Below, piece after piece: positions 9,840 through 32,737 of a stretch of 64,000 nt of DNA. Source of the stretch: an uncultured Flavobacteriales bacterium (GTDB lineage Bacteria > Bacteroidota > Bacteroidia > Flavobacteriales_G > Salibacteraceae); assembly GCA_937121175.1 (NCBI GenBank), contig CAKZKD010000006.1, positions 1 through 64,000 on the forward strand, in the 5' to 3' direction. Under the pieces are notes generated by a model that worked only from the letters and a program-made list of their open reading frames with translations, had not been told where the DNA came from and ran no database searches. Position numbers and translations under genes: made by a program. Within the stretch, counting starts at the first letter, position 1. Every line of letters starts with the position of its first letter.

Positions 9840-10889
9840 ATGTACACTCAAAGAAGATTTCCTTTTAAAAATTTGATACTCTGGACCAGACGAGAGCTCA
9901 TTTTCTTTTTTATAATCTCAATTGTTTTTACCCTATTGTACGAGGTTGTTGATGTTAAATGGTTACAGGTGCCATTAACTCCTGTAGGCCTTGTAGGTAC
10001 AGCAGTTGCTTTCATGATTGGTTTTCAGAACAATGCGGCCTATGACCGAATTTGGGAAGCCCGAAAAATTTGGGGCGGTATAGTTAACGCTTCGCGAACC
10101 TTGGTTATTAATGTTCGAGATAGCTTTTACTTGCATGATTCTAAAAACGGTAAGGACGAATCGGAAATAACTCAAATCATAGCGCACAGACATGTGGCAT
10201 GGTTAACCGCACTCAGATATGCGATGCGTACTAAGAAACCTTGGGAAGCTTCTTACCAGAAAATTCACAAGCAAAAGCATTTTGAATACCATATTCCAGA
10301 GTTTGAGGTTGAATTGGAGGATGAATTAAAACAACATTTATCGGTAGAAGAATTGAATCACGTAATGACTCAAGACCATAAACCCAATGCTATTATTTCA
10401 TTACAATCTAAGCACCTTAGAAAACTGACCGATGAGGGCAAAATTTGGGATTTTAGCTATTTGAACATGCAGCAGATTCTGCAAGAGTTAACAACGCTAC
10501 AGGGTAAGTCGGAGAGAATAAAAAACTTTCCGTACCCTAAGCAATACGGTAGCATTGGTTATCATTTTGTGCATTTGTTTATGTGGTTGTTACCGATGGC
10601 CATCATTCCTTCGTTTGCAAGTATGGGTATAACTGTAGCAGAAACAAATCCATTGGTCGGAAAGTTTTTTGTGTGGTTCAATATTCCTTTTACTGCATTG
10701 GTAATTTGGGTTTTTAATACCATGCTCCGTGTTGGATTGGCGGGTGAAAACCCATTTGAAGGTTCTCCGAACGATGTTCCTATATCAAATATTTCGAGGG
10801 GAATTACACGCGATATTTTGCAATTAGCAGAGGAGGAGCCTGGTAAAATTCCACCTGCGTTCGAAAACAAAAGTGACGTTCAGATGTAG
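9840..10889 (+). CDS. Bestrophin family membrane channel protein
   Basis: 349 residues with bestrophin (RFP-TM/YneE) hallmarks: two N-terminal membrane helices, then GFQNNAAYDRIWEARKIWGGIVNASR, and two further helices near 240-300 (LFMWLLPMAIIPSFAS, FNIPFTALVIWVFNTM), followed by AGENPFEGSPNDVP. Bacterial homologues form pentameric ion channels in the inner membrane; some are cation-selective, unlike the animal anion channels. A shorter paralogue lies at 31826-32737. The gene converges on the LytTR regulator with a 9-bp gap. Confidence 0.9.
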   Translation: MYTQRRFPFKNLILWTRRELIFFFIISIVFTLLYEVVDVKWLQVPLTPVGLVGTAVAFMIGFQNNAAYDRIWEARKIWGGIVNASRTLVINVRDSFYLHDSKNGKDESEITQIIAHRHVAWLTALRYAMRTKKPWEASYQKIHKQKHFEYHIPEFEVELEDELKQHLSVEELNHVMTQDHKPNAIISLQSKHLRKLTDEGKIWDFSYLNMQQILQELTTLQGKSERIKNFPYPKQYGSIGYHFVHLFMWLLPMAIIPSFASMGITVAETNPLVGKFFVWFNIPFTALVIWVFNTMLRVGLAGENPFEGSPNDVPISNISRGITRDILQLAEEEPGKIPPAFENKSDVQM

Positions 10890-15639: not shown

Positions 15640-16152
15640 ATGAGGTATAGGATACTGATTACCAGCGGCTTGCGACTATTTATTTTGTCGTTAATTTTAG
15701 CTTCTTTTACTGCCAATGCACAGGAAGCTCGTTTAGAGGTGCTTTCGGCTGCTGGAGAAAGTGTTGAAAAAGCGGGCTACTCTTTGTCTTACACACTCGG
15801 TGAAACAGTAACTCCAACTCAAGGAAACCGGTTTTATTTCGCAACTCAAGGATTTCACCAAATCAGCTTTCAGGCCGTGGTAATATGGGAGTATGATGAA
15901 GGCCAAATTGACATTTCAGTATATCCAAACCCATACGTAAGAGGCCTTACCGTTGCTCTTCCTTCAAATGAAACTTTTGGGGACTACAGCTTTTCAGTTT
16001 ATGATTTAACCTTTAAATCAGTAGCGAATGGAGAGTTACTTTCAAATAAAAATCAATTGGAATTAGATCAATTACCAGCCGGAACTTATCTACTCAATAT
16101 TGCCAAAGAAAACAGACTTATAAAAACTTTTAGAATCGTCAAATCACACTAA
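15640..16152 (+). CDS. Small secreted protein with T9SS sorting domain
   Basis: 170 residues: signal peptide (about 1-27, ending ANAQ), a short strand-rich domain with YSLSYTLGET and FYFATQGFHQ, and a type A sorting domain (VYPNPYVRGL ... LPAGTYLLNIAKENRLIKTFRIV). This mini-protein type often sits just before large tail-fibre-like adhesin genes in Bacteroidota and may be a surface-attached partner or helper. It ends 4 bp before the 2252-residue adhesin, so the two are almost certainly co-transcribed. Function unknown. Confidence 0.85.
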   Translation: MRYRILITSGLRLFILSLILASFTANAQEARLEVLSAAGESVEKAGYSLSYTLGETVTPTQGNRFYFATQGFHQISFQAVVIWEYDEGQIDISVYPNPYVRGLTVALPSNETFGDYSFSVYDLTFKSVANGELLSNKNQLELDQLPAGTYLLNIAKENRLIKTFRIVKSH

Positions 16153-16156
16153 CATT

Positions 16157-19100
16157 ATGAATAAATTCTTTAATCGAATAGCAAAAGCTGCACTAGGTGC
16201 TGCTTTTATTTTAGTAGCAGGAGTAACTTTTGCCCAATCTGCGTATGAGGGTATTCGATACCAAGCTGTTCTTAGAAATTCTAGCGGGGTTGTGGTAGCT
16301 TCGCAGCCAGTAAATCTGAGGTTTACCATTTATCAAAAAGGCGATTTAGGCAGTGGTTACATAGAATCTCATTCAACTAATACCAACGTTATGGGGTTAG
16401 TAAATTTAACTATTGGAGATGGTACTGCCGAGCAAAACACGTTTTCTTCCATAGATTGGGGAAAAGATCCAGGTAACCCTTACTTCTTAAAAGTGGAGTT
16501 CAGCGATAATGGGGGTTCTACTTACTTAACATTTGGCGAGTCGCAACTGCGTTCTGTACCTTATGCCATGTACGCCAAGAATGTGGAGAATGCTGATGAT
16601 GCCGATGCAGATCCAGAGAATGAAATTCAGGATCTGCTACTCACTGGAAATATTCTCGAAATTACCAATAACGGAAGCCCTTCTCTCATTGACTTAACAA
16701 AATATTTAGACAATACAGATGCTCAGTTATTGTCGATTGATAACGATACACTAAAACTTACCAATGGTGGTCAGGTTTATGTAGGATACTTTGACCAAAG
16801 TGGAGAATTAACTTCATTAGAAGCTAAAGTTCGTGCGGATAGCATTTTTTTAAGTAATAGAATTGATGGGATTGCCAATGGCCTTTCTACTCGGATTGAA
16901 AACGATAGTATTTTGCTTAACACACTTTCAAGTAATGTAGCCGCTGGAGCTTTTAAAGATTCCAGTTCAACAAATGAGCTAAATACGAGTGTATTACTTT
17001 CTGGAACAGATTTGAATGTAACTGATGCGGGAGGAACCGAGACAGCAGACTTGAGTAGCTTAGAAGAAAGCCAGGCGATAATAGATACAGCTACAAACTT
17101 ACGTTCTGACCTAGCTACAAAACAAGCTCTTGGTGATACCGCTCAAGTGTTAAGAGATTTAATCAATAATAAACCTGCGAAGGGAATAGATTCTGTACTG
17201 GCCAACGGGAATGATGCTGCCGATCAAAGTATTGTAAATCTAAAAGAACTACGGATTGGTACCTCTGGTCAAAGCGGAAATACAGTTTCTATAGTCGATT
17301 CGACCCGAGTGGTTGTTGGTAGGCAAACCGCAGTTAATGTTCGTTCGCTAGGTACAACTACTAGTACTGCAGGCCAAATAGGTATTCGAAGTGAAATTTC
17401 CGGTACAAATGGGGAAAATGTGAGTATTGAAGGGGTCTCCAATGGAACTTCTTCAGGAAGCAACGCAGGAGTAGGTGGTTATGCAAGCAATGCCGACACT
17501 AACCAAGCAGTGAAAGCAGATGCTACTGGAGGTGTCAAAGCAATTGGTGTTGATGCAAAAGCAACAGGAGGAACAGCACAAAACGTAGGACTTAAAGGAA
17601 CAGCTTTGAATGGTGGAGGTGCTTTAAATCATGGTGTTCAAGGCGTAGCACAAGGAGGTGCAGTTCAAAATATTGGTGTGGAAGGTAGAGTGATAGATAA
17701 TAATACATCGGTGGGAAACCGTGGTGTTTTTGGCTGGATTACAACCACGGGAAGTTGGAATGAAGGTGTGGCTGGATTCGCTGATGGAGCTAGCACCAAT
17801 TCCAACACTGGCGTTTACGGTCAAGGAACGAATAGTACAGGAGTTAATAGGGGAACTCACGGAACCGCAACTGTACCAACCTCCGGAATTAATATTGGTG
17901 CAGGTGGTAATGCAAGTTTTGGGACAAGTCAAACCATTGGATTGCGTGGAACTGCAAGTGGAAATGCAGGCTCAAATATAGTTTATGGTGTTTATGGGCA
18001 AGTAGATTCTTCGGGAAATATAAAGCGGGGTGTTGTCGGAAATCTCATAGGCCCAGTTGATAATAGCGATGCAGCGATTTATGGAATTGCTCAAGGTCAA
18101 GGTACAAATACTGCTATTTATGGTAGAGCCAATAACACGAACAATACTTCTGATACAAACATTGCAATAGTTGGACAAGCAGTAAACGCAATGGTTAACA
18201 TTTCCGGTTGGTTCAAAGAAGGTAATGTGTTTATTGACGATACATTATTCCTAAAAGAAGGAGCTCAACAAAACTATGTACTTACGGCAGTAGGCTCAGA
18301 TGGTAGAGCAGAGTGGATGCCTGCCCAATCGGACGATGATGCAGATTCTACAAACGAATTAATTACTTCTTTTACCTTATCGAACGACACTCTTAGAATT
18401 ACAGAAGCTGGAGTTACAAGTGAGGTTGTATTTAGTCGGTTTGTAGATACGACCACGTTCAACAATTACAAAACTCAATTGGCTCAACAAATGCAAGGGT
18501 TGGACAGTAGAATAGTGGCGGACAGCAATCGCTTAGTGACTCTCACAGATGATGTAAACACTGGAGCCTATAAAGATTCTAGTTCAACAAACGAATTGAA
18601 TACTGGAGTGAACCTAACTGGAACAGACCTGAATATCATTGACGCAGGAGGAACTCAAACAGTAGATCTATCATCATTGGACCAGTCTTCTTCAATTACA
18701 GGATTAGACACTCGAATTGAAAACGACAGTATTCGATTGAATGGTTATGATGCTAGAATACTAGCAGATAGCAATCGCCTAGTGACTCTCACAGATGATG
18801 TAAACACTGGAGCTTATAAAGATTCTAGCTCAACAAACGAATTGAATACTGGAGCTAACCTAACTGGAACAGACCTGAATATCATTGACGCAGGAGGCAC
18901 GCAAACAGTAGATTTGTCACCACTGGACCAGTCTTCTTCCATTACAGGATTAGGCACTCGAATTATAAACGACAGCAATCGATTGAATGGAATAGATGCT
19001 CGAATAGTAGCCGATAGTAACCGTGTAAATGGATTTGACTCACGGATTGTAACGGATAGCAATCGATTGAATGGAATAGACACTCGAATTGTAGCCGACA

Positions 19101-22100
19101 GCAATCGCTTAGTTACCTTGACAGATGATATAAACACAGGAGCTTACAAAGACTCTAGTTCCACAAACGAATTGAATACCGGAATGAACCTAACTGGAAC
19201 AAACCTTAATATCATTGACGCAGGAGGAACACAAACAGCAGATTTATCCTCATTAGACCAGTCTTCTTCTGTTACAGGATTAGACAATCGAATTATAAAC
19301 GACAGTCTTCGATTGAATGGGATTGAAGCTCGAATCGTAGCCGATAGCAATCGTGTTAATGGGTTTGATTCACGCATTGTAGCAGATAGCAATCGCTTGG
19401 ACGACACAGCAGCGGCTATTCGTGCTGCAATTCCAGAAGCACTTTGGTCAGAAAACGGGGATACCATTTACGTAGATAACGGCGAAAAGGTTGGAATCGG
19501 AACTGATGCTCCTGATCACAACTTAACAATTAATGTCACGGACTCTGTTGGAGTTGGAGTCTTCGTTAATGCAGACACAAAATCATCGGGCGTCGCAACA
19601 GGTGTGTTCTCAGAAATAGATGGAGGAGCATCAGGCACGTTAGAGAAGAGGGCAGGTGAGTTTTCTGCCGTTGGAACTGCAGCGAACAACATAGGTATAT
19701 TCGGATCTGCATCTGGAGCCGATACTAATTATGCCGGTTATTTTGAAGATGGAAATGTGGCTATAGAAAACCGTTTAATTGTTGGCGGTGATAATGTAGG
19801 GCTAGATTCTTCTCTTAATGTCGAAGGTGGAATAAATACGGATTATTTAAGAATTACTGAAGGAAATCCGCAATCTGGAAAAGTTTTAACCGCTGTTGAT
19901 ACAGATGGTAAAGCTACTTGGCAAGCACCAGCTGCCGGGTACACCACAAAAGGAATTGATTCTGTTTTGGTTGCAGGAAGTGACGCAGCAGGAGACTCCA
20001 TCGTAAATTTGGGTGCATTAGGTATAGGAACCACAACACCCGCATCTGCTCTTGAAATTGAATCTTCTTCGTTAGAAAATACCACATTTACAGGATCTGC
20101 TTCGAAAGGAACTTTCCTGAATATCCGTAACACAGCCGGAGGAACGGCATATAAAATTATTTCTACAGGTTCAGGGAATTTCGAAGGAGCCAAAAAACTA
20201 ATATTTGGAGTGGGATCTTCTTTAAATAGTAATAATGTTCATTCATTGGTAATCGATAGCAATAAAATTGGTATTGGTACTTTTAACCCTTCTGAGTTAC
20301 TTGATGTTAATGGAAAAGCCCACATTGACACCCTAAATATAAATGGTAAGTACGATTTACCATATGATGTTGGTAATGTTGGGGAAGTACTTACACTTCA
20401 ATCAGGAGGTGTCTCTACTTGGAAACCTATCTCGGTTAGTCAAGACGATTCAACTCGTATTGCATTTGGAACGAGTAAAATCTCCCTTTCTTCTTCACCA
20501 GGCAGAATTGACTTTTTTCACGACGATACTTCGTATTTCTACATGGATAAAGGAAGATTGCATACTGCAAACAACGGCAGAAGTGTATTTATTGGTTTCA
20601 ATGCTGGAATAAATGACGATTATAGTGCCAATCAAAACGTGTTTATTGGATATGATGCAGGTGGTGAAAATACTGTCGGAAGCAATAATGCCGCAGTTGG
20701 TGCTTTTTCTTTTAACTCTAATGTAGGAGGTGGTAATAATGCCGCATTCGGATTTAATTCGTTAAGTGAAAACACTAACGGAGATTTTAATAGTGCTTTT
20801 GGCTCCAGAGCACTACAGGAAAACATTGGTGGTGGATCAAATTCTGCATTTGGTATGAACGCGTTACGCTTTAATACAACTGGAAACGACAATTCAGCAT
20901 TTGGATTTGGATCCTTACTACAAAATACATCAGGTTCTGACAATGTAGCTATTGGTAAATATAGTATGCGTTTAGATTCCACAGGAAGTAACAATATAGC
21001 AATTGGTTCAGAGGCTATGTACGAACACAAAACTGGAAATAACAACATTGCGATCGGTACAAATTCACTGTATAACAATGAAACTGGATCTGACAATATT
21101 GTGATAGGTAATAATGCGGCATCCAACGAATTGGGTTCCGATAAACTTTACATCGAAAATTCAAATTCACCAACTCCATTAATCTACGGTGATTTTGCAA
21201 GCGATTCGTTACGCTTTAATGGTGCTGTTTCAATAAAAGATGGATTCTTTGTAGATGATGCGAACAAAGGTGATGGTAAAGTTTTAACTTCTGACGCTAA
21301 CGGAAAAGCAACATGGCAGGCCGTATCTTCTGATACCGCCTTAGTGTTGGCAGATTCTTCAAGGTCTTCATATTCATTATTCGACAACGATACATTCCGT
21401 TTGTTTTCAAACAACTCAGAGTGGTTTACAATTAAAAATGGTAGGGTAGGTATTAACATGAATAATCCGGTTGCTAGATTATGTTTATGGGATACTGTAT
21501 CAAGTGCCGGAGGTAAAGTCGGTATCAATGCTCAAGTCCATTCGATAAATGCGCAAGATACTGCAGTAGGTATTCAGTCCTATGTTACAGGAGATGCAAC
21601 CAACAAATACGGAATTTACTCTAAAGTGTACGGAGGACCAACCTCTTCTAGGTACTACGGCTTCTTTGGAGACGTAGTTTCTAATGGTTCAAATTCAATA
21701 AGTTACGGGTCGTTTAATCGTTCTAAAGGTGCTGGGTCATTCAGTGTATTTTATGGAAGTTATAATGAAGCAAATGGAACAAATGTAACCACTGCTATAA
21801 ACTATGGTATTTATGCAACGGCTTTTGGAGGATTAAACAATTACGCAGGTTACTTTGACAAGGGTAACGTTCGTATTGGAGATAGTTTGGCAATCGGAAA
21901 GGTAGATCCAGCAAGAAGACTTGATGTGGTTGGTGATGCATATGTCGATTCATTATGGACAGATTCTATTGTTATCGGTTCAGGTTCCAATCAGTTTGGT
22001 ATTGGATCTACTTCCGGTTCGAACGGAGATGTTCTTACTTATAATGGAGGTGTAGCGAATTGGTCAACACCATCCTCAATATGGGATACCAATTCCACCA

Positions 22101-22915
22101 CTGCATTTCAGTCTATAAACAAAAACCTGCAGGTTGGTGTTGGAGATTCAGCGCTTAGTTCTTTGCAAATCGATAGTAATTTTCACTTCGGAAGCTTTAA
22201 CATAGGCGGAAATCCGTTTTCATACATAACTCAGAATATATATTTCGACCCCGGTACTGGCTATAAATTATCAAACGATGGAATGGGTTATCTTATGCAG
22301 TTTGCTCCTGATGGGATAGAATTTGGAATTGTTGATAGTGCTGCCGCTGGTTCTAGTATTAGCGATGTCGATTATGGGTTCTCGTTTAGCGATGAAGGGT
22401 TAGAAATCGATGGGCCGCTGATTTTAAATGACACAACAGGAACTCAGTTGAAAATTTCTACGCCTGACTCAATAAAAGGATCGGGCTATACAATTTCTTT
22501 TCCAGATACAATAGGAACTTCAGGTCAAGTACTAGGAACTTCAGGAAGTGGCCAATTGGTATGGATGAACGATACTTTAGTTTGCCCAACTAGTATGGAA
22601 AAAGTAAACGACAACTACTGTATAGATAAAGTGGAACGTACTGCAGCCATTTGGTTTGTTGCCGATAGTATTTGTGTTGATGCTGGTTACGAATTAGCTT
22701 CTTATTCCGATTGGTATGGTGCTGCAACTCAAGCTGCTGCAGGTAATATTACCCTTACGAATATGGAAAATAATTTCGAGTGGACTTCTAATATTTCCCA
22801 GAACAACGTAATGGTGGTTGGTGATCCCTCGGGTGGTGGTTTAGGAAGACGTCAACGAGCGTTTAGAGATCCAGAGGTTGGAATTGCTACTTATCGTTGT
22901 GTTTATAGAAAATAA
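16157..22915 (+). CDS. Giant tail-fibre/trimeric-adhesin-like secreted protein
   Basis: 2252 residues. Signal peptide 1-26 (TFAQ), then an N-terminal domain common in Bacteroidota surface proteins (IRYQAVLRNSSGVVV ... RSVPYAMYAK, about 30-135). Residues 210-1100 hold coiled-coil-like repeats (ADSNRLNGIDARI type) and glycine-rich segments (GVYGQ, GIGGNA). Residues 1475-1655 are YadA-head-like repeats (SAFGFGSLLQNTSGSDN, NIAIGTNSLYNNETGSDN) and further GIGT/GNV repeats follow. The C-terminus (about 2145-2252) is a distinct four-cysteine domain with NYCIDKVERTAAIWF and SYSDWYGAA, resembling formylglycine-enzyme or lectin-like folds. No S74 chaperone or T9SS type A domain is seen. A trimeric surface fibre used for attachment is the best inference. 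Confidence 0.78.
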   Translation: MNKFFNRIAKAALGAAFILVAGVTFAQSAYEGIRYQAVLRNSSGVVVASQPVNLRFTIYQKGDLGSGYIESHSTNTNVMGLVNLTIGDGTAEQNTFSSIDWGKDPGNPYFLKVEFSDNGGSTYLTFGESQLRSVPYAMYAKNVENADDADADPENEIQDLLLTGNILEITNNGSPSLIDLTKYLDNTDAQLLSIDNDTLKLTNGGQVYVGYFDQSGELTSLEAKVRADSIFLSNRIDGIANGLSTRIENDSILLNTLSSNVAAGAFKDSSSTNELNTSVLLSGTDLNVTDAGGTETADLSSLEESQAIIDTATNLRSDLATKQALGDTAQVLRDLINNKPAKGIDSVLANGNDAADQSIVNLKELRIGTSGQSGNTVSIVDSTRVVVGRQTAVNVRSLGTTTSTAGQIGIRSEISGTNGENVSIEGVSNGTSSGSNAGVGGYASNADTNQAVKADATGGVKAIGVDAKATGGTAQNVGLKGTALNGGGALNHGVQGVAQGGAVQNIGVEGRVIDNNTSVGNRGVFGWITTTGSWNEGVAGFADGASTNSNTGVYGQGTNSTGVNRGTHGTATVPTSGINIGAGGNASFGTSQTIGLRGTASGNAGSNIVYGVYGQVDSSGNIKRGVVGNLIGPVDNSDAAIYGIAQGQGTNTAIYGRANNTNNTSDTNIAIVGQAVNAMVNISGWFKEGNVFIDDTLFLKEGAQQNYVLTAVGSDGRAEWMPAQSDDDADSTNELITSFTLSNDTLRITEAGVTSEVVFSRFVDTTTFNNYKTQLAQQMQGLDSRIVADSNRLVTLTDDVNTGAYKDSSSTNELNTGVNLTGTDLNIIDAGGTQTVDLSSLDQSSSITGLDTRIENDSIRLNGYDARILADSNRLVTLTDDVNTGAYKDSSSTNELNTGANLTGTDLNIIDAGGTQTVDLSPLDQSSSITGLGTRIINDSNRLNGIDARIVADSNRVNGFDSRIVTDSNRLNGIDTRIVADSNRLVTLTDDINTGAYKDSSSTNELNTGMNLTGTNLNIIDAGGTQTADLSSLDQSSSVTGLDNRIINDSLRLNGIEARIVADSNRVNGFDSRIVADSNRLDDTAAAIRAAIPEALWSENGDTIYVDNGEKVGIGTDAPDHNLTINVTDSVGVGVFVNADTKSSGVATGVFSEIDGGASGTLEKRAGEFSAVGTAANNIGIFGSASGADTNYAGYFEDGNVAIENRLIVGGDNVGLDSSLNVEGGINTDYLRITEGNPQSGKVLTAVDTDGKATWQAPAAGYTTKGIDSVLVAGSDAAGDSIVNLGALGIGTTTPASALEIESSSLENTTFTGSASKGTFLNIRNTAGGTAYKIISTGSGNFEGAKKLIFGVGSSLNSNNVHSLVIDSNKIGIGTFNPSELLDVNGKAHIDTLNINGKYDLPYDVGNVGEVLTLQSGGVSTWKPISVSQDDSTRIAFGTSKISLSSSPGRIDFFHDDTSYFYMDKGRLHTANNGRSVFIGFNAGINDDYSANQNVFIGYDAGGENTVGSNNAAVGAFSFNSNVGGGNNAAFGFNSLSENTNGDFNSAFGSRALQENIGGGSNSAFGMNALRFNTTGNDNSAFGFGSLLQNTSGSDNVAIGKYSMRLDSTGSNNIAIGSEAMYEHKTGNNNIAIGTNSLYNNETGSDNIVIGNNAASNELGSDKLYIENSNSPTPLIYGDFASDSLRFNGAVSIKDGFFVDDANKGDGKVLTSDANGKATWQAVSSDTALVLADSSRSSYSLFDNDTFRLFSNNSEWFTIKNGRVGINMNNPVARLCLWDTVSSAGGKVGINAQVHSINAQDTAVGIQSYVTGDATNKYGIYSKVYGGPTSSRYYGFFGDVVSNGSNSISYGSFNRSKGAGSFSVFYGSYNEANGTNVTTAINYGIYATAFGGLNNYAGYFDKGNVRIGDSLAIGKVDPARRLDVVGDAYVDSLWTDSIVIGSGSNQFGIGSTSGSNGDVLTYNGGVANWSTPSSIWDTNSTTAFQSINKNLQVGVGDSALSSLQIDSNFHFGSFNIGGNPFSYITQNIYFDPGTGYKLSNDGMGYLMQFAPDGIEFGIVDSAAAGSSISDVDYGFSFSDEGLEIDGPLILNDTTGTQLKISTPDSIKGSGYTISFPDTIGTSGQVLGTSGSGQLVWMNDTLVCPTSMEKVNDNYCIDKVERTAAIWFVADSICVDAGYELASYSDWYGAATQAAAGNITLTNMENNFEWTSNISQNNVMVVGDPSGGGLGRRQRAFRDPEVGIATYRCVYRK
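18523..19400 (+). repeat. Near-identical internal repeats in the giant adhesin gene
   Basis: Three long coding copies start near 18523, 18769 and 19099. Each reads LVTLTDD(V/I)NTGAYKDSSSTNELNTG..LTGT(D/N)LNIIDAGGTQT(V/A)DLS.LDQSSS, followed by a variable number of 15-residue (RI)VADSNRxNGxD units. They differ at only scattered bases, so in-frame gain or loss of units by recombination is likely. Confidence 0.85.
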
Positions 22916-22928
22916 AAAAGGAGGAATT

Positions 22929-25724
22929 TTGAATTGTTTAAAGCACATTTTTTTAACTGTCATTGTCTTGGTTGCCTATTGCAGTAAAGGCTACGCGCAA
23001 GATGTACTCATTAATCAAAATGGAGGAATACCGGATGGGTCAGCGGCTCTTGAGGTACAATCAAACTCCAAAGGGTTTTTACCTCCTCGGCTCACGACAG
23101 TGCAAGCTAATGCGATTTCCAGCCCAGCAGATGGTCTTCTAATTTTTAATTTGGATAGTGCTTGTTATTGCTATTTCAACGGTTCTAGCTGGGTAACGCT
23201 AGTAAATTCTGGAGATACGCTTTCTACAATTTCTGACAACGATGGAGACACTCGAATTGAAACCGAACCGGGTGTTGATGGCGATTCTATTGCGCTTTAT
23301 ACCCAAGGAAATCAAGTAATGCACCTTAGCGATATTGGAACAGTAGGTTTTGGAAGATCTGCTCCTACAAATGCAGATAATCGTTTAGAAATTTATCGTC
23401 CTACATCTAACACTGAGTTGCAATTAACAACAGGGGGAAATAATGACGTCCGAGTCAATTTCACAAGTTTATTCCAAGAATACTCTATTGGTCAATTTGA
23501 TAACCCTAAAACGTTCAGAATTTTTGACGGAACCAAAAATGCATCTCGATTTACAATTGATACATCGGGTAATGTTGGTATTGGAACAACCTCGCCCGAA
23601 GAGTTTGTGCATATCAAGAAAGACTATTCCAACCTTCTCTTTGAGGGCTTATCGCCACATGCTGTAATGTCTCACGGTTCATTGATATTAGATATTGACG
23701 AAAATTCCAATTCAACAACGGATAAATTAATAGTGAGAACAGATAGTACTACGGAGTTGATGGTCGTTCAAGAAGATGGAAATGTTGGTATAGGCACAAC
23801 TTCTCCTCTCAGTAAACTGCACCTACAAGGACAGGATAACGCTAGTAATACAACTGCTATAACGATAAGATCAACTGCAACAACCAAAGCATCAAGTATT
23901 CGATTTGATAAGGCAAGTAATGGAGAAACTGTGATTGGTCCAAATCATAACCTGGGAACCGTAGGGGCAAGCGGATATGATGGAAGTGCTTATCAATCTT
24001 CCTCTAGTATTATTTTTTCTGCCGATGGTACCATAGGAACTAATGACGTACCCGGTAGAATTGAATTTGCAACCAGACCTTCGGGTGGTACAGCTACAGT
24101 TGAACGCATGCGCATTGATAATGCCGGTAATGTAGGTATTGGAACAACGGCTCCCGCTACGGATCTGCATGTTGCACCTGGGGCATCGGGACAAACGTTT
24201 TCAAATATTTCTGGATTGGCCATTGAAAATGATGGTACAAGTAATTCCTTTTATGTGTTTCAAACTGCCACCTCAGGAGGTGGAAAGTCCTTTTCTATTA
24301 CTAATGCGGGAAATGTAGGTATTGGAACTGATGCTCCTGCTGCACCCGTACACATAGTTGGTGCTTATCCTGCAAACGCTAATACAGGTCAACTGCACAT
24401 TGCTGGGCCAACCGCTGCCGATAATATGCTTATTGGTAGAACTGCCACTTATGGGTTCGTTCAGACTCAATCTGCAGAACCATTAGTTTTAAATCCAATT
24501 TCGAATAGTGTAGGTATTGGAACTACTTCACCTACTGCTAAATTGCAAATTGATGGAACCGATGATTTGTCTCTTACCAACGATGGACTTGTTCTAATTG
24601 GGCGAAAAAATGCAAGTAATATTGTTATTGACGGCAATGAGATCATGGCCCGAAATAATGGTACTAAGTCTAGATTGTTCCTTCAAAATAGTGGGGGGGA
24701 TTTTAGTGTTGGAAATACCAAATTCTATTTAACTGATGCGGGTAGTTTAGGTTTGGGTAGTTCTGCTCCAACCAATGAGTTACACATTGTTGGATCTGAT
24801 ACCAGAACTGATGGGCGATTTGGGGTTTTTATTGACATCCAAAATAAAGCTGGATTTGTATCTTCTACTGGAAACATCACATCCGGAATTCGGTTTAAAA
24901 ACGTTACTGGGAACTTTGAAAACGCATATACTCATGCAGGAATACTGTTTCAAACAACGGCAGCCGACGGATATGGAAATTTGGTTTTGGCCAATAAAAA
25001 CACTGGAACAGGTTTCCCTGTTGATGTTGCGGACGGAGATTTAGTAATAACACCAGCAGGGGATATAGGTATTGGAACTGCTGCTCCGGGATACAAACTT
25101 CACGTTTCTGAGAATAATTCTGCTGGACATGTTGCAACTATTGAAAATACTAATACGGGTACAAATGCAGATGGATTAAGAATTGTTTTGGGGCAGGCGA
25201 GCCCTGGAACATCAAATAATTACTTAACATTTTACCGTTCTGGAGGAACTATTGCTGGTCAAATAGAAGGCAACGGAAATGCCGTATCTTACAATACCAC
25301 TTCTGATAGACGTTTAAAAACTAACATCAAAAATTTCAATTCTGGTTTAAATCTTTTATCTGACATTCAGCCGAGATCTTATGAACGAAAAACAACATTA
25401 GGAAAAGTTGAAATTGGTTTTATTGCGCAGGAATTAAAGCAGGTATTTCCACAAATGGTTAGTGGTGATTCAACTTTAGATGTTCAAACTGCCCCAATGA
25501 TGGTAAGTTATTCGGATCTGACACCTGTCCTTGCTGCTGCAATTAAAGAGCTGCATGAATTGGTTAAGAATCAACAATTTAAAATTGAAAGATTAGAATC
25601 GGAGAATTCTGTTTTAAAGTCAGAATTGATTGAGATAGAAGATTTAAAAACGAATCAGAAAGAGCTTCAAGAACAACTGAAGTTGATTCATCAAAGAATA
25701 AATACTGGTGTTACTAAACAGTAA
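22929..25724 (+). CDS. Tail-fibre-domain surface protein with S74 intramolecular chaperone
   Basis: About 931 residues from TTG at 22929, chosen because AGGAGG (22919-22924) precedes it and it gives the signal peptide MNCLKHIFLT...GYAQ; an upstream in-frame start at 22878 would overlap the previous gene. The N-terminal domain (LINQNGGIPDGSAALEVQSNSKGFLPPRLT) is shared with the next gene. The centre is made of beta-helix-like GNVGIGTTSP repeats. The C-terminus has a Peptidase_S74 autoprocessing chaperone (SDRRLKTNIKNFNSG near residue 792, IGFIAQELKQVFP) and a terminal coiled coil. S74 domains trimerise phage spikes and then cleave themselves off at the Ser of SDRR. Probable trimeric surface fibre. 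Confidence 0.82.
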   Translation: MNCLKHIFLTVIVLVAYCSKGYAQDVLINQNGGIPDGSAALEVQSNSKGFLPPRLTTVQANAISSPADGLLIFNLDSACYCYFNGSSWVTLVNSGDTLSTISDNDGDTRIETEPGVDGDSIALYTQGNQVMHLSDIGTVGFGRSAPTNADNRLEIYRPTSNTELQLTTGGNNDVRVNFTSLFQEYSIGQFDNPKTFRIFDGTKNASRFTIDTSGNVGIGTTSPEEFVHIKKDYSNLLFEGLSPHAVMSHGSLILDIDENSNSTTDKLIVRTDSTTELMVVQEDGNVGIGTTSPLSKLHLQGQDNASNTTAITIRSTATTKASSIRFDKASNGETVIGPNHNLGTVGASGYDGSAYQSSSSIIFSADGTIGTNDVPGRIEFATRPSGGTATVERMRIDNAGNVGIGTTAPATDLHVAPGASGQTFSNISGLAIENDGTSNSFYVFQTATSGGGKSFSITNAGNVGIGTDAPAAPVHIVGAYPANANTGQLHIAGPTAADNMLIGRTATYGFVQTQSAEPLVLNPISNSVGIGTTSPTAKLQIDGTDDLSLTNDGLVLIGRKNASNIVIDGNEIMARNNGTKSRLFLQNSGGDFSVGNTKFYLTDAGSLGLGSSAPTNELHIVGSDTRTDGRFGVFIDIQNKAGFVSSTGNITSGIRFKNVTGNFENAYTHAGILFQTTAADGYGNLVLANKNTGTGFPVDVADGDLVITPAGDIGIGTAAPGYKLHVSENNSAGHVATIENTNTGTNADGLRIVLGQASPGTSNNYLTFYRSGGTIAGQIEGNGNAVSYNTTSDRRLKTNIKNFNSGLNLLSDIQPRSYERKTTLGKVEIGFIAQELKQVFPQMVSGDSTLDVQTAPMMVSYSDLTPVLAAAIKELHELVKNQQFKIERLESENSVLKSELIEIEDLKTNQKELQEQLKLIHQRINTGVTKQ

Positions 25725-25730
25725 TTGATT

Positions 25731-28700
25731 ATGAAAATATTAAAAGTTACCCTCTTATTCCTTTTGGCACTTGGAACTTATATTCCAGCTGACGCTCAGT
25801 GGATGCTAATAAACCAAGATGGCGGCACGCCTGACCCTACTGCAGCTTTAGAACTCCGTGATACCACTAAAGGTTTCCTGCCTCCAAGGCTCACCACCAC
25901 ACAAATGAACGCCATAAGTGGCCCTGCTGCAGGATTGCTCATTTACAATACCGATAGTTCTTGCTATTGCTCTTACGATGGAACAAAATGGGATAATGTT
26001 GCGAATTCTGCAACCGACACCACGGCCAATATACCCGTAGGAACCATAATTGCATTTGGTGGCGATACCAACAATATTCCAGCTGGGTTTTTATTGTGCG
26101 ACGGTGCTTCGTTGGCACAATCGGCTTATTCAGAATTGTTCGCCGCTATTGGCGCAGCATGGGGTGGTGATGCCGCTAATTTTAATTTACCCGATTTACG
26201 TGGGCGTTTTTTAAGGGGTGTAGCCAACGGCTCAACCAACGACCCAGATAGAGCAAGCAGAATCGCTAGTTCAACTGGTGGAAATACTGGGGATAAGGTA
26301 GGGGCTGTTCAAGGAGATGCATTTCAAAGTCACGGGCATTTAAGCACTTTGAGTAATAGTTCCGGTGATGCAGCTGGTGGTACAGCAAGGAATACAATTG
26401 CAACAACTGGAGGTGGAATAGTTAACGATAGGGTTTTAAATCCAACCACGTTGGGATCGTTTGGTACTCCGAGAGTCTCTACAGAAACCCGCCCAATAAA
26501 CGCCAATGTAAACTACATTATTTGCTACAGCAGTAGCATTCCAACAACGAGCTCGGGCAGTACTGCTTTTCAAGGAACAGTAAGTGCCAGTAATTTACCG
26601 GCAAGTGCTTTTGAAGACAGCACTCGAATTACTGATGCAGCAGGCAATACTAAAATTGAAATCAACGGTTCAAACAACACCATTTTTTCCAATGGCGGAA
26701 GTGAAAGTGCACGTTTTACTTCTAGTGGGTTTTTGGGTCTGAACAACAACAACCCTCAAGCAGTATTAGATGTTGGTGGCACAGCCATTATTGATTCTTT
26801 GCGGATTTATAATGCGTATTCTTTTCCTGGATATGATGGTACAAATGGGCAAGTATTACAAACCGACGGAAGTGGAGAAGTGACATGGCAGCCAGCGCCT
26901 TCTTCACCATGGACGGTGTCAGGAAGCAATGTTTATCGTTCGTCTGGAAGGGTTGGTATTGGGACTTCTAATCCAAGGACCACATTACATCTTCATACAG
27001 CTGCTTCTGTAGGACATTACGTAGAAATAACGAACGGCACTTCATTGTCTAGAGGTCTTCAACTTGGAATCAATAATGCTGGCATTGCATACATACTTCA
27101 AAAGGAGAATTTTGACCTTAAGATAAGAACTAATGATATAGATAGAATAACTGTACAGGCTGGTGGAAACGTAGGTATTGGAACAGTCACTCCAACGGTG
27201 GAATTAGATGTGAATGGAGATGCTAAAATCTCAGGAAAAACTACTACTGGAACTTTCCAGTTAACTTCAGGAAGTAGTTTAAATGGAAAAGTACTCACTT
27301 CAGATGGTTCAGGTAATGGCACTTGGCAACCAGCGCCTTCTGGAGCAGATGGAGATGGGATTTACGATGGTTCTGGAAACCTGACATCTAATACTACAGT
27401 GACAATGGCTGCCCATCAAATGGTTTACAATCTTACTGGTGCTGGTGATTTCTTTATCCGAGATAATGGCACTAACGTTTTTCGGGTAAACGATAATGGA
27501 GATGTTGAAATAGACCAAGGAAGCTTGTTTGTTGATGCCGATGTAAATAACGTTGGAATTGGTACTTCCAGCCCTCAAGTTCCATTGCACCTAACCGGTG
27601 GCAACGATGCTTCATTGAATGCCACCAACGGCTATATGGTAATTGGCAATACTAATAGCAATAATTTGGTATTTGACAACAATGAAATATTAGCCAGAGA
27701 CAATGGTGCAACCTCGTTTTTAGCTTTAAATGCAAATGGTGGGGCAATCAGTATGCATGCCGGAATAAATGATGTAAACCGTTGGGGAGTATTCTTGGAT
27801 GATGGCAACTTTATATTAGGTGACACACTAACCGCAAACCGTACAAAACTTCGTGTTGCGGGAAAAGTATTGGCAGATACGTTGGCTGTGCTAAATGGAG
27901 TTCAGTTTCCTTTAGATAAGGGTACAAATGGACAAGTACTAACCTCAAATGGTTCCGGGTTAGCGACTTGGCAACCAGTTCCAAGTAGCGCGGATAATTT
28001 AGGAAATCACACAGCTACGCAACGCATTCAACTGAATGGGAATAAAATATCGAATGACGGAGGAAACGAGGGACTATCTATAGCCGACAATGGTGAGGTT
28101 ACTGCAACGCCTGCAACACAAGGCGCTGGTAATAAGGCGATGTCAACCAATGGTGATTTTTTTACCAACGGGCAAGGAACGGGTATTTATTTTTCTACCT
28201 ACGACATTGGCATTGATGGAAACGATGGTAACTCAGGAGCATTGAGGCTCAAAACAGGTTCTGGTACTCCTCGTTTAACCATAAGTAATACGGGTGCAGC
28301 AAGCTTTTCTAGTACGTTAGCGGTAAGCGGAACAACAACCCTAAATAATGATGTATATGTTACTGGCTCAGATGATTATGTAGGTATTGGTACGAGTTCT
28401 CCAACCAGTCAACTTACCATTTTTGGAGATTCTTCAAGTGCATTTACCTTAAAATCTACGGACAACACTAAAAACCACGGAATCGCATTTCAAAACTCTG
28501 GAAACGCGTACAGTTGGGTAATTAGACGAGAAAACAGCTCTACAGCAAATAACCCCGATTTTGTAATTGCTGGAGGCGATGTAAATTCTGATATTACAAG
28601 TTTGGATGAACGGTTTAGAATTACTAATGATGGAAATGTTGGTATCGGAACAGCAAATCCAACTGCAGACCTTACCATAGCGAGCACTAGTACTGCAGCT

Positions 28701-30422
28701 GTAAGATTAAATACTTATGGCTCAACTTTAAACGAAGCCTCCATTTTATATCTAACAAAAGCTCGGGGAACAGAAAGCTCTCCGACCGCAGTTGTTAATG
28801 GAGATAATATAGCAAGAATTAATGCTGTAGGCTATGACGGCTCCACGTATCAATCGGCTGCAAGAATTCGCATGTCAGTGGATGGTACTCCGGGAACTAA
28901 TGATATGCCAGGTAGAATTCAGTTTTTTACTACCGCGGATGGAAGTGCTACCAATACAGAACGCATGAGAATTACTAACAGCGGAAATATTGGAATAGGA
29001 ACTACTGCACCAGCCACTAACCTTCACGTAACAGGAACTGCTCCTGCAAATGCCGCCACTGGCCAATTGCAAATTGATGAATCAGGTGGAAATTCACTTA
29101 TGCTTGGCCGAACTGCTACCTATGGCTATGCTCAAACTCAAAATTCGGAACCTTTTGTTATTAATCCACTTTCGAATAATGTGGGTATTGGTACAACGGC
29201 TCCAACTTCTGTTTTGCATGTTGACGGAAAAACAACTATTGATCAATCGGCGACTTCAGGTATTGGTATTCAAGTTCGAAGAAGTGATGATTTATCCAAT
29301 GTTTTTAGAGTATTTACTGGTACAGGAAATAATGGTAATATCGCGATTCACAATGCCTCTAATACAACTACAGTAAAGATAGCAAGTGGTACCGATGATT
29401 CCTATTTTAATACCACGGGTAATTTTGGTTTAGGAACAAACAGCCCTTCTTCAAGACTTCATGTTTCCTCAACGTCATCAGGTTTGGCTACTTTTGAAAA
29501 TACCGGCGGACATTCTTACACCAACCAAGTAGCCTCCACCAATAATAAGGCGTATACCTTGTATAAAGAAGGTACAAACACATGGGGTTCTGTTGGTATG
29601 GAAGGGTCGGACAATTCGTTTAGAATTTACCACGGCACCACTTCGGGTAACCCGGTTTTTATGGCTAAAACGGACTTGTTAGTTGGTGTTGGTACAACAA
29701 ATCCGCAAGCCCAATTTCATGTTTCCGGTGGAGATATTTTGGTGGACAATACCAAGGCTTTAGACGGTGAGCTAACTTCTGGAGCTGCCGTTAACTTAAT
29801 ACGAGTTTCTTCTGCGAATCATGTCCAAATCGGGGATAATGCCGTTAATGATGTTCGTATAAACGTTGGGTCTACATTGAATGCTTTAGTTGTAGAAGAT
29901 GGAGGACAAGTTGGAATTGGAACAGTGAACCCTTCTTATGATTTGGATGTCGTTGGGAATATTAATGCCTCACTAACTGTCCGAGCAGCTGGCGTTGCAC
30001 TTGTTTCGGATAGGAGATATAAAACCAACATTCTTCCATTAGAGGGCGCATTAGCTTCTCTTAAACTGCTTTCGGGGGTTTATCATAATTGGGATACGAT
30101 TAATTTCCCTAAAGAACAATTTCCTAAGGGCAAGGCAATTGGTGTAATTGCTCAGGATATGCAAAAAATTTATCCCGAACTGGTTTATGAAAACAATGAT
30201 GGATATTTGGCCGTAGATTATGCAAAATTCTCTACAGTTTTGCTCGAAGCAATCAAAGAACAACAAAAACAAATAGAATTGTTGCAAGTCTCTAACGCTG
30301 CTAAACAAGACGAAAATGGCGAATTAAAATCTGAGCTTAACGGATATGAAAAACGTCTGAAACGATTGGAGTTTCTAATTGAACAAAATCAGTCCAATGC
30401 TACGGAAGTGGGCAGAAATTAA
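25731..30422 (+). CDS. Giant tail-fibre-like surface protein with collar and S74 domains
   Basis: About 1563 residues from ATG 25731 (a TTG at 25725 is less likely). Signal peptide ending PADAQ, the same N-terminal domain as the preceding protein (FLPPRLTTTQMNAI), a phage tail-collar domain (about 98-260; GTIIAFGG, GFLLCDG, FNLPDLRGRFLRG), long GNVGIGT repeats, a Peptidase_S74 chaperone (SDRRYKTNILPLEG, AIGVIAQDMQKIYPEL) and a C-terminal coiled coil. The collar-fibre-chaperone order is that of phage tail fibres, but the signal peptide and lack of other phage genes point to a cell-surface adhesin. It is 6 bp after the previous gene. Confidence 0.83.
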   Translation: MKILKVTLLFLLALGTYIPADAQWMLINQDGGTPDPTAALELRDTTKGFLPPRLTTTQMNAISGPAAGLLIYNTDSSCYCSYDGTKWDNVANSATDTTANIPVGTIIAFGGDTNNIPAGFLLCDGASLAQSAYSELFAAIGAAWGGDAANFNLPDLRGRFLRGVANGSTNDPDRASRIASSTGGNTGDKVGAVQGDAFQSHGHLSTLSNSSGDAAGGTARNTIATTGGGIVNDRVLNPTTLGSFGTPRVSTETRPINANVNYIICYSSSIPTTSSGSTAFQGTVSASNLPASAFEDSTRITDAAGNTKIEINGSNNTIFSNGGSESARFTSSGFLGLNNNNPQAVLDVGGTAIIDSLRIYNAYSFPGYDGTNGQVLQTDGSGEVTWQPAPSSPWTVSGSNVYRSSGRVGIGTSNPRTTLHLHTAASVGHYVEITNGTSLSRGLQLGINNAGIAYILQKENFDLKIRTNDIDRITVQAGGNVGIGTVTPTVELDVNGDAKISGKTTTGTFQLTSGSSLNGKVLTSDGSGNGTWQPAPSGADGDGIYDGSGNLTSNTTVTMAAHQMVYNLTGAGDFFIRDNGTNVFRVNDNGDVEIDQGSLFVDADVNNVGIGTSSPQVPLHLTGGNDASLNATNGYMVIGNTNSNNLVFDNNEILARDNGATSFLALNANGGAISMHAGINDVNRWGVFLDDGNFILGDTLTANRTKLRVAGKVLADTLAVLNGVQFPLDKGTNGQVLTSNGSGLATWQPVPSSADNLGNHTATQRIQLNGNKISNDGGNEGLSIADNGEVTATPATQGAGNKAMSTNGDFFTNGQGTGIYFSTYDIGIDGNDGNSGALRLKTGSGTPRLTISNTGAASFSSTLAVSGTTTLNNDVYVTGSDDYVGIGTSSPTSQLTIFGDSSSAFTLKSTDNTKNHGIAFQNSGNAYSWVIRRENSSTANNPDFVIAGGDVNSDITSLDERFRITNDGNVGIGTANPTADLTIASTSTAAVRLNTYGSTLNEASILYLTKARGTESSPTAVVNGDNIARINAVGYDGSTYQSAARIRMSVDGTPGTNDMPGRIQFFTTADGSATNTERMRITNSGNIGIGTTAPATNLHVTGTAPANAATGQLQIDESGGNSLMLGRTATYGYAQTQNSEPFVINPLSNNVGIGTTAPTSVLHVDGKTTIDQSATSGIGIQVRRSDDLSNVFRVFTGTGNNGNIAIHNASNTTTVKIASGTDDSYFNTTGNFGLGTNSPSSRLHVSSTSSGLATFENTGGHSYTNQVASTNNKAYTLYKEGTNTWGSVGMEGSDNSFRIYHGTTSGNPVFMAKTDLLVGVGTTNPQAQFHVSGGDILVDNTKALDGELTSGAAVNLIRVSSANHVQIGDNAVNDVRINVGSTLNALVVEDGGQVGIGTVNPSYDLDVVGNINASLTVRAAGVALVSDRRYKTNILPLEGALASLKLLSGVYHNWDTINFPKEQFPKGKAIGVIAQDMQKIYPELVYENNDGYLAVDYAKFSTVLLEAIKEQQKQIELLQVSNAAKQDENGELKSELNGYEKRLKRLEFLIEQNQSNATEVGRN

Positions 30423-30425
30423 TAC

Positions 30426-31700
30426 ATGAAAAACATACCAGAACAAGGCGCAAGAAAACGAATTGTAATTGTAGGAGCAGGTTTTGCTGGCGTTAAACTG
30501 GCTTTATCTCTTTCTGCAAAGCAATTTCAGGTGGTTTTGTTAGACAAAAACAACTATCACCAGTTTCAACCTTTGTTTTATCAAGTAGCAACTTCGGGTT
30601 TGGAGCCTAGCTCCATTTCTTTTCCAATTCGGAAGATTTTACAAAACAAAAAGAACGTTCATTTTAGAGTAGCTGAATTGCGTGAAGTAAAATCAGAAGA
30701 AAAAGCCATTGAAACCAATATTGGTTCACTTCACTACGATGAATTGGTGTTGGCGTTAGGGGCAACTACTAACTTTTTTGGAAACCCAAATTTGGAGAGA
30801 TACGCTGTGCCAATGAAGTCGGTTTCTGAGGCATTGTACCTCCGAAATTGTATTCTAGATAATTACGAAAATGCGCTGAATACGGCGGATAGCAGTGAGC
30901 AAGAAGCATTAATGAATATTGTAATTACGGGTGGTGGACCAACAGGGGTAGAGCTAGCTGGCGCATTGGCCGAAATGCGCAAATTCGTTTTGCCAAAAGA
31001 TTATCCCGAATTGGATTTCACTAAAATGACCATCTCATTGTTAGAGGGTTCGCCAAGGCTGTTGAATGGAATGTCTGAGTTTGCAGGTAAGCAAAGTCTC
31101 AAATACCTTCAAAAATTAGGAGTAGAAGTTCGATTGAATTGTTTGGTTGAAGATTATGATAGTCAAACCGTTTCCTTAAAAGGAGGGGAGACGCTCAATT
31201 CTAAAACCTTGCTCTGGGCTGCAGGAATTAAAGCCAATTCGGTTATAGGGTTTCCAGACATCTCCATTGGGCCTGCAGGGCGAATTTTAGTTAACGAATT
31301 CTCCCAAACGAACTTCAACGAGAACATTTATATAGTTGGTGACCAAGCCTTAATGATAACCGAACAAAATCCAAAAGGAGACCCACAAGTTGCACAAGTG
31401 GCTATTCAGCAGGCACAAAATGTAGCCAAGAACTTGAACAACAAACGTTTACAAAAACCACTAAAATCTTTCAAGTATTTTGATAAAGGTTCGATGGCTA
31501 CCGTTGGTAGGAATTTAGCGGTATGTGATTTATCGGTTGGAAGTCTAAAAGGAATTATAGCCTGGTTGATGTGGTTGTTTGTGCATCTAATGGCCATATT
31601 AGGTACTAAGAATAAGGTATTTGTTTTTCTGAACTGGACTTGGAGTTATCTTACATACGATCAGTCGCTTAGATTGATGATAAAACCAAGAGAGAAGTAG
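30426..31700 (+). CDS. Type II NADH dehydrogenase-like FAD oxidoreductase
   Basis: 424 residues. FAD-binding Rossmann motif IVGAGFAG (15-22), NAD(H)-binding motif GGGPTG (169-174), the YHQFQPLFYQVAT segment and the conserved IYIVGDQA and FKYFDKGSMATVGR blocks, followed by C-terminal membrane-associating helices (LMWLFVHLMAILG). NDH-2 enzymes pass electrons from NADH to quinone at the inner membrane without pumping ions. It begins 3 bp after the stop of the last fibre gene, which suggests read-through transcription, though no functional link to adhesins is known. Function call is strong. Confidence 0.9.
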   Translation: MKNIPEQGARKRIVIVGAGFAGVKLALSLSAKQFQVVLLDKNNYHQFQPLFYQVATSGLEPSSISFPIRKILQNKKNVHFRVAELREVKSEEKAIETNIGSLHYDELVLALGATTNFFGNPNLERYAVPMKSVSEALYLRNCILDNYENALNTADSSEQEALMNIVITGGGPTGVELAGALAEMRKFVLPKDYPELDFTKMTISLLEGSPRLLNGMSEFAGKQSLKYLQKLGVEVRLNCLVEDYDSQTVSLKGGETLNSKTLLWAAGIKANSVIGFPDISIGPAGRILVNEFSQTNFNENIYIVGDQALMITEQNPKGDPQVAQVAIQQAQNVAKNLNNKRLQKPLKSFKYFDKGSMATVGRNLAVCDLSVGSLKGIIAWLMWLFVHLMAILGTKNKVFVFLNWTWSYLTYDQSLRLMIKPREK

Positions 31701-31825: not shown

Positions 31826-32737
31826 ATGATAATCCAATTTTCCGAAAACAGATTTCAACGACTGGTTGGAATTATTAGATACAACTACAAGGCAATTTTA
31901 ATTTTTTTGGTAGTGGATTTTTTGGTGTACTACCTTCACAAGCACATGTTGTTCAATATTCATTTGCCTGCTGTGCCAGTAAGTATTTTAGGTGGTGCTT
32001 TGGCCATCTTTCTTGGTTTTAGAAATAATTCGGCTTACGATAGATGGTGGGAGGCTCGCAAAATATGGGGCGGTATAGTAAATGTTAGTCGTTCTTTTTC
32101 TTTTGAAATATTGGCAATGCTGGGCAAGAGTGAAATCTCTAAAAGGTTGGTTTATCGTCATTTGGCTTGGATAAATTCGGTCAGAATTCAACTAAGGAAA
32201 GAAACAAACACAATTGAGTTGGAACAATTTCTAGATGAAAGTGAATTCTCCAAACTTGAAAGCTGGGCAAATCCAGCAACCCAATTATTGACCATTCAAG
32301 CATCGGGAATTGCTAATCTAAAGAAGGCCAAGGAACTGTCGGATATTGAGCAAAAGCAAATTATGGAGTCCATTAAAACCATGATGGACTTACAGGGTAT
32401 GGCCGAACGAATTAAAGGAACAGTTTTTCCGTATTACTACGTGTATTTTACGCAAGTTTTTTTGTGGGTTTTCATTTTGATATTGCCCATGATATTGGTT
32501 GAAGAAATGGGAATTGCATCTGTTCCAATGGCCATGGCAATTTCATTTGTGTTTTACATTCTTGATAAATCCGGACACATTACGGAAGACCCTTTCGAAA
32601 ATCGAGCAGCCGATACTCCTATGAGCGCTATATGTAGGGTAATTGAAATTGATTTGAGGCAAATGCTAGGTGAAGAAAATTTGCCGCAAAGATTACCAAG
32701 TGAATTTACCAGTTTTCATGTCGAATACCTTAAATAA
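31826..32737 (+). CDS. Bestrophin family membrane channel protein (second paralogue)
   Basis: 303 residues with the same signature as the 9840 gene: GFRNNSAYDRWWEARKIWGGIVNVSRS, two N-terminal helices (ILIFLVVDFLVYYL; VSILGGALAIFLGF) and two later ones (TQVFLWVFILILPMIL; SVPMAMAISFVFYI), then EDPFENRAADTPMSAICR. It lacks about 45 residues compared with the first paralogue, mainly in the loop between the helix pairs. Probably a pentameric inner-membrane ion channel. It stands alone on the + strand. Confidence 0.9.
   Translation: MIIQFSENRFQRLVGIIRYNYKAILIFLVVDFLVYYLHKHMLFNIHLPAVPVSILGGALAIFLGFRNNSAYDRWWEARKIWGGIVNVSRSFSFEILAMLGKSEISKRLVYRHLAWINSVRIQLRKETNTIELEQFLDESEFSKLESWANPATQLLTIQASGIANLKKAKELSDIEQKQIMESIKTMMDLQGMAERIKGTVFPYYYVYFTQVFLWVFILILPMILVEEMGIASVPMAMAISFVFYILDKSGHITEDPFENRAADTPMSAICRVIEIDLRQMLGEENLPQRLPSEFTSFHVEYLK

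Follow-up and report, generated by a model that had tools for sequence, protein, structure and literature searches.

A small T9SS-tagged protein as a candidate surface partner of MAT-like giant fibres in Bacteroidota

How do bacterial surfaces hold phage-like fibres? The question is raised by a stretch of DNA of 64,000 nucleotides from an uncultured Flavobacteriales bacterium of the Salibacteraceae (contig CAKZKD010000006.1 of assembly GCA_937121175.1, positions 1 to 64,000; hereafter the window), in which a protein of 170 residues tagged for the type IX secretion system (T9SS), the mini-protein (15640-16152, + strand), is encoded just ahead of a fibre of 2252 residues (16157-22915, +) whose start lies 4 bp past the mini-gene stop. 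This fibre is related to the "mosaic adhesive trimer" (MAT) proteins of Bdellovibrio bacteriovorus, and how MAT fibres are held on the surface is left open in the part of the published discussion that we cover (Caulton et al. 2024, PMC10769870). We consider it probable that the fibre's physical partner on the surface is the mini-protein, acting either as its carrier or as its anchor, and we prefer the carrier. MAT fibres and the T9SS are themselves known and what is new is their coupling: literature searches, outside which most subscription journals and bioRxiv preprints fell, returned nothing in which MAT or tail-fibre adhesins are linked to the T9SS. The open reading frames (ORFs) and Pfam agree with the inventory of an earlier note on this DNA (a T9SS-tagged mini-protein, fibres of 2252, 931 and 1563 residues, and a type II NADH dehydrogenase (NDH-2) 3 bp on), which missed both the MAT-like start of the giant fibre and its recurring pairing with the mini-protein.

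The start of the 2252-residue protein matches the Bdello_MAT_N model (NCBIfam NF053851) with 39.4 bits (E 5e-10), under the curated cut-off of 60, and none of the 18 matches in its own genome exceeds that cut-off: by sequence, its N-domain is a homologue of the Bdellovibrio MAT N-domain, a relative and not a curated member. As in the MAT superfamily, a conserved beta-rich domain of about 130 residues comes straight after the signal peptide, and the fibre N-domain of one relative is all-beta in a predicted model. Delimited with a model from the own-genome copies, the N-domain spans 16184-16678 (+), including the end of the signal peptide, and it is about 41-49% identical to the N-domains of other Bacteroidota. 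Among 80 MAT-like fibres (79 of the 85 MAT proteins encoded in full at the named loci described below, plus the 2252-residue protein of the window), 76 match NF053851 at E <= 0.001, and Pfam finds Collagen in 29, Lcl_C in 24, Fib_succ_major in 16, S74 in 5 and PF05658 in 1, with Collar, C1q and others as further tip or shaft domains; Lcl_C and Fib_succ_major we take to belong to the C-type-lectin class. Across the family, variable tips (some of them S74-ended) are therefore carried on one N-domain, and the collagen repeats suggest, indirectly, that the fibres are trimers.

The 2252-residue protein is itself not S74-ended: it has zero Pfam matches at E <= 0.001 and, in Pfam and NCBIfam, neither a T9SS sorting domain nor S74. 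Its shaft contains tandem DNA repeats (18508-19399, +; units of 246/330 bp, 83-89% matches), suggesting a recent change of shaft length, followed by nine 'GSNNxAIG'-type repeats spaced by about 17 residues (20678-21106, +; no Pfam match) that look YadA-head-like by eye. These repeats and the single PF05658 match recall the YadA-type trimeric autotransporters, but none of the three fibres of the window matches a YadA anchor at E <= 1 (Pfam, NCBIfam). The C-terminal tip (22574-22912, +) has a similar ending, RAF.DP...YRCVY, in family members, and sequence searches assigned no fold to it. As far as the covered parts of PMC10769870 go, the Bdellovibrio and Bacteroidota proteins are alike in their long fibre, in a homologous N-domain straight after the signal peptide, in tips that can be exchanged and may or may not have S74, and in tips of the C-type-lectin class; they differ in that the Bacteroidota fibres score under the subfamily cut-off, are paired with a T9SS-tagged gene and have collagen-like shafts (29/80).

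The sorting signal that the fibre lacks is found on its small neighbour. The mini-protein consists of a signal peptide (called by eye), an N-domain of about 50 residues (ND; about 15736-15873, +; E 1.8e-16 with an ND model partly built from it) and a type A T9SS sorting domain (the C-terminal domain or CTD; about 15919-16125, +), which scores 40.3 bits with Por_Secre_tail PF18962 (cut-off 27) and 35.2 with TIGR04183 (cut-off 23). Por_Secre_tail is matched by 72 of 72 mini-proteins, and our own CTD model finds no CTD in any of 183 MAT proteins. PDB sequence searches with the MAT N-domain and with the ND gave chance-level matches only. The mini-protein thus resembles the T9SS substrates of type A (PMC10994853, PMC12618676, in the parts covered), its modelled CTD aligning with T9SS CTD structures (8qb1: Z 9.0, root-mean-square deviation 2.1, 75 aligned; 8glk: Z 8.5, deviation 2.5, 74 aligned), but here the large fibre is without a CTD and it is a small second protein that bears the signal; in what we cover of the literature, each T9SS substrate bears a CTD of its own. 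In three MAT-adjacent proteins (our loci L124, L134 and L135) a type B sorting domain (TIGR04131) stands behind an ND-like start, recognised by profile in L135 at E 5e-5 and, weakly, in L124 at E 0.0033, and by eye in L134: with type B in place of the type A CTD, it appears that the ND-like part was kept and the export class changed. A PorP/SprF gene adjoins the type B partner in L134 and L135, a likeness to type B substrates with PorP/SprF, and passages of PMC10994853 describe type B substrates as exiting with other carrier proteins, which anchor them. In L134, the neighbour gene fuses PorP/SprF with an OmpA-like domain.

Does the pairing recur? In the window's own genome, whole-genome profile searches located ten MAT-N-domain genes at six loci; a search with the mini-protein returned itself and five matches covering its N-terminal half, one per other fibre locus (further matches, to E 1, cover the sorting domain only), and at all six loci a mini-gene lies immediately 5' or 3' of the fibre genes, whose products end in S74, Collar, Lcl_C or unrecognised sequence. 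Beyond this genome, a scan of genome contigs with five N-domains gave at least 535 bacterial relatives, the best 80 of which yielded 79 named loci, whose titles give Bacteroidota or a taxon belonging to it in every case but one, a Rhizobium metagenome-assembled genome (L208), whose contig with a Bacteroidota-type MAT gene is probably mis-binned. These loci hold 91 fibre operons, 85 of them informative once six with a contig edge beside the fibre are left out. An ND protein is present in 74 of the 85: directly upstream, on the same strand and within 300 bp in 70 (69 with a CTD by model), downstream in one (L164), one gene further in two (L166, L169) and in a broken frame in one (L191). The gap between mini-gene and fibre is 5 bp in the median and at most 15 bp in 57 of the 70. 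Eleven operons are without an ND of their own, three being later units of the L150 cluster that stand beside other CTD proteins and eight having none. As a control, 531 other ORFs with 150 residues or more were examined, and 2 have an ND upstream, both within fibre operons.

To avoid picking by score, a second set took every MAT match at E <= 1e-8 in 20 relatives (54 regions, 55 operons, 49 informative after six with a contig edge were left out). An ND is adjacent in 42 of the 49 and elsewhere in the operon in four, making 46/49; counted per gene with both sides checked, an ND adjoins 42 of 56 MAT genes and 20 of 366 other ORFs, 14 of the 20 being cases in which a MAT gene is next to that ND as well. 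A sample of the phylum (61 genomes) has the MAT N-domain in 14 genomes (33 matches); 20 of its 21 non-own MAT loci were inspected (G043 was left out), and a mini-type protein is adjacent in 15 by profile, in L124 weakly (E 0.0033) and in L134 by eye. The converse holds as well: a model of the ND alone (37 rows) gives 19 matches in the 61 genomes, 19 of 19 adjoining a MAT gene by coordinates, and none in the 47 genomes without MAT. The mini-gene, with which the operon begins in the earlier note, is not incidental; it is the most constant neighbour of the fibre. Two side observations belong here: on contig C2 of the own genome (L058, about 416-425 kb), one ND mini-gene closes a row of five tandem MAT-like fibres with near-alike N-domains and differing ends, which would make up a small adhesin repertoire; and in L164 (11326-20360) an ORF of more than 3000 residues, open at the locus end, lies 3' of the MAT fibre with an ND at its start, possibly a giant ND-bearing surface protein.

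How might such a pair work? The window's genome has a clear SprA (SprA_N E 2.9e-158, open frame of 2536 residues), which makes it a T9SS host. SprA_N is found in 47 of the 61 genomes, including 14 of 14 with MAT; MAT occurs in none of the 14 SprA-less genomes (Fisher p 0.026), and SprA in 21 of 21 relatives, own genome counted. Over 126 pairs, the distance between fibre N-domains correlates with the ND distance (Spearman 0.826) and with the CTD distance (0.789; bootstrap difference 0.037, 95% range 0.006-0.067), the partial correlation of ND and fibre N-domain given the CTD being 0.52 (permutation p 0.001). T9SS substrates exit SprA via a CTD bound to PorV (PMC10994853, in the part covered). 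We hypothesize that the 2252-residue fibre, which has a bacterial N-domain as its base, then a long shaft of repeats and at the end a variable tip, and which bears a Sec signal but no T9SS signal of its own, would depend on the mini-protein, whose CTD would give access to the T9SS translocon and whose ND of about 50 residues would bind the fibre N-domain as a foot under the fibre. Such a partner might take the fibre out to the cell surface by export in trans; at the least, it would hold the fibre there as the surface-linked base that remains after CTD removal. In Porphyromonas gingivalis, type A proteins are cleaved and joined to anionic lipopolysaccharide (A-LPS). A passage of PMC5445135 is consistent with this cleavage and linkage, and from the known CTD/PorV export and type A anchoring we infer that the CTD exports the mini-protein and that the ND serves as the fibre's foot. 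The two downstream S74 fibres of the window would probably share the base or join mixed fibres. Export in trans in the strict sense, in which a CTD-less fibre leaves on a small CTD-bearing partner with its ND docked on the fibre base, is a tentative proposal, to which we give somewhat less than even chances.

Several observations weigh against these proposals. Three loci of the phylum sample (L126, L136, L140) are without an adjacent mini-type protein, and a T9SS-tagged neighbour was not found in 3 of 49 (20 relatives) and 8 of 85 (named loci) informative operons. The ND model was drawn in part from sequences that it later recovered. The association of SprA with MAT is a weak test because most genomes that lack SprA come from a single family, and the ND co-variation figures are inflated by shared ancestry, with a small margin over the CTD. 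AlphaFold was run twice on natural mini+fibre pairs that are in frame, glycine being put in place of the stop; the CTD and fibre N-domains are confident, but the ND is modelled poorly in both runs (predicted TM-scores of 0.51 and 0.45) and the two do not agree on a contact. In the first pair model, alignments to immunoglobulin (Ig)-like domains of glycoside hydrolase family 2 run from residue 33 in the ND to residue 286 in the fibre N-domain (e.g. 3gm8: Z 8.4, deviation 2.9, 97 aligned), and the second has no such bridging alignments; Foldseek with the pair model gave nothing beyond generic matches of Ig or fibronectin type III kind. Strand-lending by the ND, seen in one of the two models only, is not claimed.

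The linkage of mini-gene and fibre would look the same if the mini-protein were an anchor only, leaving by the T9SS as a surface base on which a fibre that crosses the outer membrane independently of the T9SS then docks. This arrangement gains from the fact that no published CTD-less T9SS substrate turned up, which leaves export in trans without precedent in the literature searched; however, no other outer-membrane export gene recurs in the operons inspected and MAT was seen solely in SprA-bearing genomes, making an anchor-only role rather unlikely in our view. It could also be argued that mini-protein and fibre are separate surface or periplasmic factors expressed from one promoter (for example with the former as a folding helper) and make no lasting contact, given that operon structure by itself is no proof of contact and that the contact predictions are inconsistent between models. 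Such independence is hard to reconcile with a one-to-one, two-way linkage that persists across the phylum despite altered gene order (mini-gene before or after the fibre), with the switch of T9SS signal class and with the co-variation of ND and fibre N-domain, and we regard it as improbable.

That the genes are phage tail genes within a bacterial genome, a prophage remnant or a tailocin, is suggested by their S74 and Collar domains and by the 333 phage records that the 931-residue fibre matches, every one at under 60% identity, a result to be expected of an S74 fibre. Yet no phage gene was recognised by Pfam among the ten genes that flank the locus (two are without a match), the MAT N-domain is found in 0 of 50,697 phage records and, among 2.9 million viral contigs, at one locus at a contig end, and the proteins come with signal peptides and a T9SS partner. 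A prophage or tailocin nature of the unit as a whole is contradicted by these data and seems to us very improbable; phages may nonetheless have its S74 and Collar domains in common with it. The idea of the earlier note that the fibres were captured from phage modules fits no more than the S74, Collar and shaft parts, and does not extend to the N-domain of the 2252-residue protein with its at least 535 bacterial relatives. The window fibres share S74 with SDxxxK, Collar and a repetitive shaft with phage tail fibres; unlike them, they have a signal peptide, a bacterial N-domain (in the giant fibre) and a T9SS partner, with no virion genes found beside them.

If the fibre is indeed exported in trans by the mini-protein, the pair would represent a general Bacteroidota adhesin platform with swappable tips and would put a name, in the Bacteroidota branch, to the base partner that MAT fibres have so far lacked. 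Widespread CTD-less fibres whose signal is encoded by a partner gene dedicated to them would widen the rules of T9SS export, and the proposal offers a testable answer to the opening question. For the cataloguing of Bacteroidota adhesins it provides a genomic rule: where an ND mini-gene is found, a putative adhesin is found.

What then are the other genes of the operon? The next fibre, of 931 residues (22929-25724, +; TTG start behind GGAGG), has a 'GFLPPRLT' N-domain (22929-23240, +) and a C-terminal S74 (25302-25460, +; Peptidase_S74 52 bits, cut-off 22), and the third, of 1563 residues (25731-30422, +), has a 'GFLPPRLT' N-domain, a Collar domain (about 26040-26213, +; 68.6 bits, cut-off 24) and a C-terminal S74 (30006-30188, +; 42.1 bits, cut-off 22). 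The S74 motif SDxxxK (PMC10769870, in the part covered) is intact in both, as SDRRLK at residue 792 and SDRRYK at residue 1426, respectively. Both S74 domains and the collar had been claimed before and are borne out, and the signal peptide claimed for each fibre is seen by eye, each ending ...AQ, in line with putative fibre-type surface proteins built with phage-type pieces. Neither protein has a T9SS sorting domain in Pfam or NCBIfam, and a promoter scan 5' of the operon gave no signal exceeding chance. The NDH-2 gene (30426-31700, +; 424 residues, Pfam Pyr_redox_2 and NDH2_C) starts 3 bp past the stop codon of the third fibre. The earlier note placed it in the operon, but of 11 NDH-2 copies in relatives only one (same genus) lies directly past a fibre; another is about 33 kb off on the same contig, and the rest lie on different contigs or in genomes lacking this fibre, and we judge NDH-2 to be a neighbour and reject it as a functional part of the module.

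In the same-genus genome, the order is exonuclease, mini-gene, MAT fibre (1586 residues), NDH-2 and bestrophin, without the two S74 fibres. Two family members have a mini-gene and a MAT fibre (1941 and 2318 residues, sharing their ending with the 2252-residue fibre) followed by three and four fibres with 'GFLPPRLT' N-domains. These gene orders identify mini-gene and MAT fibre as the constant core, of which the two S74 fibres look like passengers. Around the window locus, the ten flanking genes encode two bestrophins, a LytTR regulator, two kinase-type proteins, an exonuclease, an SRAP protein, a flavin mononucleotide (FMN) reductase and two proteins without a Pfam match; Bestrophin_2 genes lie on either side (9840-10889 and 31826-32737), and in the same-genus genome too Bestrophin_2 follows NDH-2.

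The 'GFLPPRLT' domain is also found within some MAT fibres. In an own-genome cluster (L326, contig C5, 341-360 kb) about six 'GFLPPRLT'-type proteins of 314-343 residues share an 'ENRPPYY.LAYIMR'-type terminal motif, with no T9SS partner seen. Elsewhere, fibres with a 'GFLPPRLT' N-domain have as same-strand neighbours larger proteins with a T9SS CTD (L054:8302-14542, L328, L330, L331, L332, L334, L335 and L336), perhaps a second kind of partner. On contig C34 of the own genome, two S74 fibres have a different N-domain, and the next gene, overlapping by 4 bp, encodes a protein of 421 residues whose sorting domain scores at the cut-off.

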